Of a stretch of DNA of 64,000 nt, positions 37,271-39,965 are shown one piece after another. The notes beneath the pieces were generated by a model. The model was not told where the DNA came from, did no database searches, and saw only the letters and a program-made list of their open reading frames with translations. Origin of the DNA: Catellatospora coxensis (lineage in GTDB: Bacteria; Actinomycetota; Actinomycetes; Mycobacteriales; Micromonosporaceae); the NCBI RefSeq assembly GCF_016862635.1, contig NZ_BONI01000018.1, forward strand, positions 1 to 64,000. The letters run 5' to 3'. How positions within the stretch are numbered: position 1 is the stretch's first letter; each line of letters opens with the position of its first letter. Made by a program: the position numbers and the translations under genes.

Positions 37271-37379
37271 TGCAACATGAACATGGGAACGGATGTCATC
37301 GCCGAACGCGACCGCGCAACGCTGTCGGCCCGCGGACGCGCCCTCCCCTCCGTCGCCACGGCTGTCTATGGTTGCCGCC

Positions 37380-39173
37380 ATGGACGACCTCCTCGCCACC
37401 CGCCGCCCCGTCTTCGACGCCCGGATCAGCCTCGCCACCGCAGTGCACGCGCAACCCGGCGTGTATGCCCTGCTGCTCGGCTCCGGCACGTCCACGGCGG
37501 TCGGCGTGCCCACCGGCTGGGGTGTCGTGACCGCACTGGTCGCGAAGGTCGCCGCGGCCGCGGGCGAGACCGCGCCCACCGACGCCGAGCTCGAGCAGTG
37601 GTGGACCAAACACGGCGACGGCGCACCGCTGGGCTACTCCGCGCTGCTGGAGTCGCTGGCCAGCACCCCCGCCGCGCGGCGGGCGCTACTGGCGTCCTTC
37701 TTCGAGCCCAGCGCCGAGGAACGGCAGCAGGGCATCAAGGTCCCCGGCGCGGCCCACCGCGCCATCGCGGCGCTGGTCGCCCGCGGCGCGGTGCGCGTCA
37801 TCGTCACCACCAACTTCGACCGGCTCATCGAGCAGGCGCTCGAAGCCGAGGGCATCTTCCCGCAGGTCATCGCGAGCCCCGCCGCGATCGAGGGCATGGA
37901 GCCGCTGCCGCACGCCCGCTGCACCGTCATCAAGCTGCACGGCGACTACGCCCGCACCGACCAGCTCAACACCGTCGAGGAGCTGAGCGCCTACCGCGCG
38001 CCGTGGCAGCGGCTGCTGGAACGCGTGCTCGACGAGTACGGCCTGATCGTCAACGGCTGGTCGGGCGACTGGGACCACGGCCTGGTCGCCGCCCTCGAAG
38101 GCACCCGGTCCCGGCGCTACCCGCTGTTCTGGGCGTCGCGCGGCGAGCTCGGCCAGATCGCCAAGCGCCTCGTCGCGCAGCACCGCGCCCACGTCATCAC
38201 CGGGGCCGCCGCCGAGCAGTTCTTCCCCGACCTGGTCAACCGGCTCGAAGCGCTCGACGACCTCGCCGACCCGCCGCTGACCAAGGCGATGGCGGTGGCC
38301 CGGCTCAAGCGGCTGCTGCCCGACCCGGTCAAGCACATCGAGGTCGCCGACCTGTTCGACACCGAGATCCGGCGGCTGCGCGACTACCTGCGCACCACGC
38401 CGCCGACACCTTCGGCCCCGGACCCGGCCGCCGCCCAGCGCGTCCACGACGACGTGCGCGCCCGCTGCGACACGCTGATGCGGCTGCTCGCGCACGGGGT
38501 CTACCTCGACCGCGACCGCCAGCACACCGCGCTGTGGGTACGCGTCATCGAGCAGCTCATGCGCGCCCGGCACCGCCCCGAGGGCGAACCGGACCCGCGC
38601 TGGGCCGGGCTGCAGCACTATCCGGCGCTGCTGGCGCTGAAGACCGCGAGCCTGGCCGCGGTCGCGTCCTACCACGACGACGTGCTGCTGCGGCTGCTAC
38701 GCCGGCCGACCTGGCGGATCCGGGCCGGCAACGGGCACCGGCCGGTCGCCGCGATGGACGCGCTGCACGACTGCCGGGTGCTCGACTTCGACACCGTCAA
38801 CGCGTTCCCCCGCTGGCACGGCGCCACCTGGCAGTACCCGCAGAGCCGCCTGCTGCGCGAGGAGACCATGCCGGTGCTGCTGCCGCTGGTCGGCGACGAG
38901 GACTCGTTCCTGCAGCTCTACCACCGCACCGAATACCGCACCGCGCTGGCGCAGTCGCTGTTCGGGGTGAGCGACGGGCTGGGACCGGCGGCGGGCGGGT
39001 TCGCCGTGGACTCGCAGTGGGCGGCGGACGGGACGCTGTACTGGGAGACGGACTTCCGGGAGAACGCCGACCGCGACATCTGGGAGCGCACGCCGCTTGG
39101 CCGCCGCGACGGCGAGGCGTACGGCCGCAGACTGGCCGTGCTGGCAGCGCAGCTGCGCACTCTGGAGGTGTGA
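37380..39173 (+). CDS. SIR2-like domain protein, putative NAD-consuming effector
   Basis: A 597-residue protein. The N-terminal ~270 residues are a SIR2_2-type Rossmann domain: GSGTSTAVGVPTGW at 34-47, TTNFD at 143-147, and KLHGD with catalytic-type His187, followed by GWSGDWD. The C-terminal ~330 residues are helical and unassigned. Many bacterial SIR2 proteins (ThsA, DSR1/2, SIR2-pAgo, Sir2-HerA partners) destroy NAD+ during phage infection; this long stand-alone architecture fits that group better than protein deacetylases. ATG 37368 and ATG 37380 are both possible; no clear ribosome site. Its stop is nine bases from the stop of a convergent TIR gene. Confidence 0.85.
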   Translation: MDDLLATRRPVFDARISLATAVHAQPGVYALLLGSGTSTAVGVPTGWGVVTALVAKVAAAAGETAPTDAELEQWWTKHGDGAPLGYSALLESLASTPAARRALLASFFEPSAEERQQGIKVPGAAHRAIAALVARGAVRVIVTTNFDRLIEQALEAEGIFPQVIASPAAIEGMEPLPHARCTVIKLHGDYARTDQLNTVEELSAYRAPWQRLLERVLDEYGLIVNGWSGDWDHGLVAALEGTRSRRYPLFWASRGELGQIAKRLVAQHRAHVITGAAAEQFFPDLVNRLEALDDLADPPLTKAMAVARLKRLLPDPVKHIEVADLFDTEIRRLRDYLRTTPPTPSAPDPAAAQRVHDDVRARCDTLMRLLAHGVYLDRDRQHTALWVRVIEQLMRARHRPEGEPDPRWAGLQHYPALLALKTASLAAVASYHDDVLLRLLRRPTWRIRAGNGHRPVAAMDALHDCRVLDFDTVNAFPRWHGATWQYPQSRLLREETMPVLLPLVGDEDSFLQLYHRTEYRTALAQSLFGVSDGLGPAAGGFAVDSQWAADGTLYWETDFRENADRDIWERTPLGRRDGEAYGRRLAVLAAQLRTLEV

Positions 39174-39182
39174 CGGCCCTCG

Positions 39183-39938
39183 TCACGACAGGCGGACCGA
39201 CACCTCGCGCCCGTCTGCCTGTACGGCGGTGAGCCGGAACGCCCCGTCGTGCTCCACCCGCAACGTCACACCGATCTGCGGCACCCCGGCCGGGGCGGGC
39301 TCCAACTGCAGCTCGTAGACGCCGAGCGACCTGTTGCCGGCGACGGTCGGGCTGTCTCCGTGATACACCCGCACCTTGAGGACGGGCTGGCCGTCGTCGG
39401 CGGTGGTGAACAGCTGGGTGGACGCGCACGGCACCACCGTTCCGGCCGCGATCAGCGGCAGGAACGCCCCGCCGCCGACCTCGATGCCGACCGCGGTCCC
39501 GGTCACACCGCCCCGGACCGGCACGGCGAACCAGTTGCCCGGGGCCTCCACCACGGCCGGCGCTCCACCGGTCGCGGCTTGCAGCCGCTGGACGAAGGTC
39601 GCGCCGGGCAGGCCGCCTCCGGTCACGTCCTCCTGCTCGGACATCGTCGGCCAGGGCAGGCCTTCCAGCAGCAGCGGCAGCACCGGCCGGCCGAGCCGCC
39701 GGGCGTGCTCGACCTCACGGGCCACCCAGCCGTCGCGCTGCGCGGCGGGCGTCATCACCACGATCACCGCCGAGCAGCTGTCGAGCTGCGACCGCGTGTA
39801 GGTGGACCACCAACTGTCCGTCACCGGTTGCGTGTCGTACAGGATGGACAGTCCGGAAGCGACGAGGTGGGCGGCCAGTCGCCGGGCGTAGGGCGCATCG
39901 TGTTCACGGCTGAAACTGATGAATACCGGCCCGCTCAT
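39183..39938 (-). CDS. TIR domain fused to an Hsp70 substrate-binding-like domain
   Basis: A 251-residue protein. Residues 1-~125 are a TIR domain: VFISFSREHD start, CSAVIVVMTP beta strand, and WVAREVE with E75 at the position of the TIR NADase catalytic Glu. After a linker, residues ~149-251 resemble the beta-subdomain of the DnaK substrate-binding domain: VGIEVGGGAFLPLIAAGTVVP, TTADDGQPVLKVRVYHGD, NRSLGVYELQLEPAPAGVPQ, then IGVTLRVEHDGAFRLTA. The Hsp70 ATPase domain is absent. This suggests a TIR effector that binds exposed hydrophobic peptides. Its start overlaps no other gene; it is convergent with the SIR2 gene. Confidence 0.85.
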   Translation of the reverse strand: MSGPVFISFSREHDAPYARRLAAHLVASGLSILYDTQPVTDSWWSTYTRSQLDSCSAVIVVMTPAAQRDGWVAREVEHARRLGRPVLPLLLEGLPWPTMSEQEDVTGGGLPGATFVQRLQAATGGAPAVVEAPGNWFAVPVRGGVTGTAVGIEVGGGAFLPLIAAGTVVPCASTQLFTTADDGQPVLKVRVYHGDSPTVAGNRSLGVYELQLEPAPAGVPQIGVTLRVEHDGAFRLTAVQADGREVSVRLS

Positions 39939-39965
39939 GCGCGGATGGTATCGGGGCCGCGCCCG

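Follow-up and report, generated by a model that had tools for sequence, protein, structure and literature searches.

A TIR protein of Catellatospora coxensis that carries the substrate-binding domain of Hsp70 without its ATPase

Parts of the Hsp70 chaperone system occur in several described or predicted bacterial defence systems. The NACHT protein bNACHT25 needs DnaJ for phage sensing and is triggered by coat-protein synthesis (PMC12169576), CoCoNuTs include Hsp70-like units made of a nucleotide-binding domain (NBD) and a substrate-binding domain (SBD) within predicted defence systems (PMC11090510), and GTPase conflict systems comprise Hsp70 genes, one kind of which is without the peptide-binding domain (PMC7159879). 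Described here is a gene, called TIR-SBD below, located in a 64,000-nucleotide stretch of the C. coxensis genome (contig NZ_BONI01000018.1, positions 1 to 64,000; hereafter the window), the product of which joins a TIR domain to the beta part of an Hsp70 SBD (SBD-beta). As proposed for TIR-SBD, bNACHT25 links immune sensing to the chaperone system, whereas there the chaperone is a separate host DnaJ, the protein belongs to the NACHT type, the response is DNA degradation and no TIR domain takes part (PMC12169576). With CoCoNuTs and GTPase conflict systems the protein would share the recruitment of Hsp70 parts to predicted defence, but it is the reverse of them in composition, since an SBD-beta without ATPase is fused to a TIR domain (PMC11090510; PMC7159879). 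A TIR-Hsp70 SBD fusion is nowhere named in the accessible text of the literature searched, mostly papers free of subscription and, for bioRxiv preprints, only those held in PubMed Central.

The two-domain product is a TIR protein by sequence, fold and motif. Pfam TIR_2 matches residues 5-97 (E 1.8e-14, 54.7 bits against a cut-off of 28) and Pfam HSP70 matches residues 145-242 (E 1.2e-17), covering only positions 389-487 of the 599 in that profile. The NCBIfam model prok_dnaK is matched at positions 385-489 (E 1.1e-20), with a score far under its whole-protein cut-off, as expected for a match to part of a protein; phmmer against solved structures matched BiP and DnaK within their SBDs with values near 1e-18, and PADLOC returned weak TIR matches only (best 1.1e-4). 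The ATPase is missing, the Hsp70 match beginning at profile position 389 and the N-terminus being occupied by the TIR domain, and so is the helical lid (SBD-alpha), the match stopping at residue 242 of 251; because both are absent the protein is not an Hsp70. The fusion without ATPase put forward in a preliminary description of the window is thus borne out, as is the SBD-beta fold it assigned to the C-terminal part, which is present in the predicted structure with the end pairing residue 144 with DnaK 393. The linker between the domains varies in length and sequence among homologues and, at residues 126-135, has a predicted local distance difference test score (pLDDT) below 50. The host genome holds one TIR-SBD gene, and the two further matches there belong to frames 619 and 667 residues long, a size expected of ordinary Hsp70s.

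The protein shares with DnaK the fold of SBD-beta and the greater part of the peptide cleft, and differs from it in the absence of ATPase and lid and in the partial loss of the residues that contact the NBD and J-domain. A lidless Hsp70 of Planotetraspora mira (L049 4861-6336, plus strand, 491 residues), which among Hsp70s comes closest to the profile of the TIR-SBD family (120 bits), also bears SBD-beta at its extreme C-terminus, but it retains the ATPase (Pfam HSP70 profile 1-494) and has no TIR domain.

The TIR domain gives a profile match to SARM1 (3.5e-8) in which its W-V-A-R-E motif aligns with W-V-x-K-E of SARM1, and its predicted fold matches the structures of SPARTA, SARM1 and ThsB. 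W71, V72 and E75 are invariant in the ten aligned TIR rows, and E75, singled out in the preliminary description as a catalytic-type glutamate, is present in all six intact TIR-SBD homologues. From this sequence and the modelled fold we infer that the domain would act as an NADase. SPARTA TIR-APAZ and SARM1 are likewise TIR NADases, from which TIR-SBD differs in having no APAZ or Argonaute, ARM or SAM part and an SBD as partner domain; as the TIR is followed by Hsp70 SBD-beta and no APAZ, the protein falls outside SPARTA. It also falls outside Thoeris ThsB, with 17.7 bits on ThsB_TIR (cut-off 21.2), 20.6 bits on Thoeris_type3_ThcB4 (cut-off 220) and E values of 0.001 or weaker on the PADLOC ThsB models.

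Same-family TIR proteins, the TIR domains of which are 39-49% identical to that of TIR-SBD (BLAST), bear other C-terminal modules. Among ten of them that were scanned, TPR repeats were found in three, WD40 propellers in four and weaker propeller matches in one, and nothing was recognised in two. Like TIR-SBD, the TPR and WD40 proteins (L067, L061, L060, L062, L019) carry the module after the TIR domain, and E75 is kept in the three that were aligned; they have repeats where TIR-SBD has Hsp70 SBD-beta, which therefore occupies the position of those repeats. As is general for the class, the repeats of TIR-TPR and TIR-WD40 proteins would do the sensing, and TIR-SBD resembles these proteins with a new recognition part. 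One of these loci (L061, G133:C24:1-12000) holds one TIR-WD40 and two TIR-TPR genes within 11 kb, and P0002 finds 13 matches in this genome when the threshold of the 200-genome search described below is applied.

Conservation of the SBD was examined by aligning the nine SBDs of the family with those of 28 Hsp70s, DnaK numbering being transferred to the former by counting. The cavity residues of Escherichia coli DnaK were taken from a table in PMC4408060 (all of the 30 positions it gives for SBD-beta except N458, hence 29) and the NBD and J-domain contacts from PMC8215388. The equivalents of DnaK F426, S/T427, T428, A429, D431 and Q433 are identical in all nine family SBDs, and those of V436, I438 and I472 are still aliphatic. 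Sites conserved among Hsp70s, that is, shared by at least 26 of the 28 SBDs, are kept in the family at 11 of 18 cavity positions versus 13 of 49 elsewhere (Fisher p=0.02), and mean similarity is 0.64 over the 29 cavity sites versus 0.40 overall (resampling P=0.0014). These sequence comparisons help the case for a sensing role of the SBD, since sister TIR proteins carry TPR or beta-propeller modules at this place and since the cleft is better kept than the rest.

Homologues and their gene neighbours were compared, a check named in the preliminary description. Of 200 genomes from this bacterial family, the own genome included, at least six hold intact fusions (the window, G129, G125, G100, G042 and G071), 51-71% identical to the window protein and five of them within its genus, which contributed 11 genomes; all counts of this search are lower bounds, 13 candidates having been scored per genome in most genomes. 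At least two copies are broken, that of G016 with the SBD reduced to the first 49 of 115 profile positions and that of G087 with the middle part gone, E75 included. An SBD without TIR was found in at least three genomes (G017, G094 and, less surely, G061, where the gene caller favoured a frame on the opposite strand). The family profile gives 147-186 bits for the nine SBDs, at most 107 for the Hsp70s of the loci compared, apart from the lidless one mentioned above, and up to 112 for those of 55 other genomes. A threshold of E 1e-33, which the Hsp70s of these 55 genomes do not reach, was used for wider samples, and in 396 genomes of the phylum and 397 of the order, the own genome included in each, it was passed by the window gene alone, with the best 11 first-look candidates scored per genome, so that a weak match could escape.

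The 55 genomes, all actinobacterial, gave 59 SBD matches, of which 57 belong to frames 505-712 residues long and the other two are TIR-SBD and an interrupted dnaK; judged by frame length, no ATPase-free SBD besides TIR-SBD occurs among these 59 matches. The interrupted gene, a 315-residue frame in G221, was considered as an ATPase-free SBD and rejected, as pieces of lid and ATPase are present. Of the 20 loci returned by a scan of genome_contigs, one is a TIR-SBD, namely the gene of G100, and 19 have Hsp70-like frames of 491-651 residues. From these lengths and the negative samples it follows that an ATPase-free SBD is rare and that the fusion has so far been seen in one bacterial family; independent fusions outside it are possible. 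A quick tree of the SBDs separates the family from Hsp70s by a branch with support 91 and groups the six TIR-SBDs with support 46; at this value, and with long branches meeting, the tree does not establish a single origin of the fusion.

Upstream of the gene, a TANNNT box stands 6-7 bases before the ATG in all eight genes compared, namely the six intact fusions, the broken G016 copy and the solo SBD of G017, and in seven of them it reads TACCAT. Shuffled upstream sequences had the box at 0.07 on average and in at most three of eight, figures that overstate its significance because the genes are related and the comparison was made after the box had been seen; within the window, the box occurs at two of 46 gene starts, one of them that of TIR-SBD. 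Starts outside this count show TACGAT (G087) and TATCCT (G061) at the same place and none in G094. In actinobacteria, a -10 box at such a distance is a mark of leaderless transcripts, and the TACCAT sequence suggests that TIR-SBD has its own, leaderless promoter. The solo SBD gene of G017 (L064) has the same promoter-like box and begins with the same residues as the fusion, so that it looks like a copy from which the TIR was deleted in frame. Ratios of non-synonymous to synonymous substitution (dN/dS) by the NG86 method, which is crude for GC-rich DNA, were, with 15 pairs per domain, 0.35-0.67 in the TIR domain and 0.38-0.77 in the SBD, 0.15-0.22 for the neighbouring SIR2 gene (6 pairs, from four of the eight SIR2-bearing genomes) and 0.14-0.23 for a decarboxylase-like gene (6 pairs). 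The elevated values of TIR-SBD fit an arms race or weak constraint.

In the window, G129, G125 and G100, TIR-SBD is situated in the interval from the SIR2 gene (PDC-S65) to an acetoacetate-decarboxylase-like gene, whose 27.2 bits fall slightly short of the Pfam cut-off. The same interval also holds a putative major facilitator superfamily transporter gene in the window and a solute-binding-like gene in G129 and G087, and in G109 it is empty, the two flanking genes being 50 bases apart (L097 10579-10628). In G042, G071 and G016 the TIR-SBD gene, broken in the last, is found elsewhere and without those neighbours. These differing loci, the empty site and the absences indicate that TIR-SBD was gained, lost and moved independently. 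No neighbour is common to all loci in the gene lists of 11 loci, Pfam having been run on ten proteins, nine of them neighbours. The SIR2 protein matches PDC-S65 at E 1.1e-193 (residues 32-602 of 626) and SIR2_2 at 3.5e-10; its gene ends 9 bases from the end of TIR-SBD and is present in eight of the 11 genomes of the genus, 86-94% identical, and in nine of the 200 family genomes, the one other genus being represented by G107 (68%). A Thoeris-like pairing of TIR-SBD and SIR2 was considered and set aside: the genes are convergent, SIR2 occurs without an intact TIR-SBD in three of the eight SIR2-bearing genomes of the genus, and the two genes are about 95 kb apart in G071. No SLOG match was found in the SIR2 protein with Pfam up to E 10, and its ThsA matches are limited to the SIR2 part. 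The SIR2 gene is a syntenic neighbour of TIR-SBD rather than a demonstrated partner.

As for carriage by phages or plasmids, no relative was found in viral_contigs (searched with A1). Matches occur in 109 plasmid records, none spanning 80% of the protein; the 20 listed all start from residue 145 on, covering the SBD only, and are DnaK where annotated. The SBD is matched in 30 phage records, and of three inspected two belong to frames 639 and 621 residues long. In the third, from a Lak-C1 phage (L104 2458-3795, plus strand), the SBD-bearing frame covers only Hsp70 profile positions 210-599.

Table 1. Coordinates of the TIR-SBD gene, its parts, its convergent neighbour and the small genes that encode an SBD only.
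Feature	Position	Strand	Basis
TIR-SBD gene, 251 aa, ATG at 39936-39938	39183..39938	-	Open reading frame, translation, Pfam TIR_2 and HSP70
TIR domain, residues 1-124	39567..39938	-	Pfam TIR_2, SARM1 profile match, structure matches
W71-E75, W-V-A-R-E motif with catalytic-type Glu	39714..39728	-	Conservation, SARM1 alignment
Linker, residues 125-143	39510..39566	-	Low pLDDT, variable length
Hsp70 SBD-beta, residues 144-251	39186..39509	-	
F-T-T-A-D-D-G-Q, residues 177-184 (DnaK 426-433), peptide cleft	39387..39410	-	
TACCAT, 6 bases upstream of the ATG, probable -10 box of a leaderless promoter	39945..39950	-	
SIR2-like gene, 626 aa, convergent neighbour	37293..39173	+	PADLOC PDC-S65
Small SBD-only gene	L064 9708-10076	-	
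Small SBD-only gene	L065 5059-5418	-	
Small SBD-only gene	L063 9835-10188	+	

Our preferred reading, held tentatively and at a little less than an even chance, is that TIR-SBD is a self-contained, single-gene immune or self-killing TIR NADase in which the SBD gathers TIR domains on exposed hydrophobic polypeptide. The TIR domain would be the effector that cleaves NAD+, and SBD-beta the part that recognises the trigger, a lidless clamp that would grip extended hydrophobic polypeptide independently of ATP. As the Hsp70 lid limits both association and dissociation of substrate (PMC8215388), the binding of single peptides should be rapid and weak in a clamp that lacks both lid and ATPase. A single peptide would then be held only briefly, and therefore only a many-site surface, such as an aggregating or unassembled over-produced phage protein, would hold several molecules together and gather the TIR domains long enough for them to assemble and become active. 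The preliminary description suggested an effector triggered by exposed hydrophobic or unfolded polypeptides such as viral capsid intermediates; the findings support it in part, for the anatomy and in some measure for the SBD as sensor, while the trigger, capsid intermediates most of all, is a hypothesis. In its most specific form, a prokaryotic immune receptor in which a motorless Hsp70 clamp would directly detect exposed hydrophobic polypeptide, with a threshold set by avidity and with aggregating or unassembled phage protein as template for the TIR NADase, the proposal is possible, with doubt prevailing.

Several observations weigh against the preferred reading. The 11-residue core pocket set, our own selection, is not significantly better conserved by itself (P=0.08), the arch residue M404 is replaced by Gly, Arg, Lys, Ser or Ala, R467 is kept in three of nine family SBDs, and the cleft residues may be conserved for folding. 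A loss of coupling to NBD and J-domain is visible in part: the equivalent of N415 is Gly and that of T420 is Cys in all nine (the latter, C171 at 39426-39428, being Thr in 26 of 28 Hsp70s), and Asp is never found at D477 (one Glu); speaking against a complete loss, P419 persists in nine of nine and V440 in eight of nine, and the seven NBD/J contacts as a set are lower in similarity (0.27), but not significantly so (P=0.24). Furthermore, two of eight copies are broken, the high dN/dS could reflect weak constraint, and the genomic context shows no phage link. It could be supposed from several of these facts that TIR-SBD is not an immune protein in use but a decaying or selfish fusion, as its dN/dS of 0.35-0.77, the broken copies and its confinement to one bacterial family in the samples searched would allow; given that the E75 motif, the cleft loop and the promoter-like box are conserved in homologues at several loci despite their divergence, we regard this as very unlikely.

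Other explanations accept an immune role and assign a different task to the SBD. It might bind one defined partner and not unfolded protein in general, either a segment of a particular phage protein or a host chaperone component, the protein in the latter case guarding DnaK and its clients; arch positions unlike those of E. coli DnaK, the fast evolution of the SBD, the dependence of bNACHT25 on DnaJ (PMC12169576) and the example of HscA, in which an SBD has specialised on one client (PMC8215388), all speak for it, while the changes at D477 and N415 argue against J-protein or NBD docking and no constant neighbour points to a partner, so that we consider it rather unlikely. That the SBD serves as an internal lock or assembly scaffold, holding the linker or a segment of a neighbouring molecule and thereby keeping the TIR off or building the oligomer while the trigger is sensed otherwise, finds a precedent in DnaK SBDs, which can take up the linker belonging to another DnaK molecule (PMC8215388), and agrees with the disorder predicted for the linker; this seems distinctly unlikely with a linker so variable, a conserved peptide cleft and no further part of the protein left for sensing. 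Sensing of RNA, argued for Hsp70-like units of CoCoNuT systems (PMC11090510), is a remote prospect: the CoCoNuT unit comprises both NBD and SBD, and DnaK binding to RNA is said there to involve both, whereas TIR-SBD has no NBD and has retained the peptide cleft.

TIR-SBD provides an example of an Hsp70 SBD employed without its ATPase. With only 251 residues, a presumed sensor of known fold and ligand kind with mutable residues, and a presumed output that can be read by a simple NAD+ assay, the protein makes it possible to ask in vitro whether a bacterial immune enzyme senses the folding state of proteins directly. If the preferred reading is true, such direct sensing would constitute a general trigger that phages would find hard to evade.
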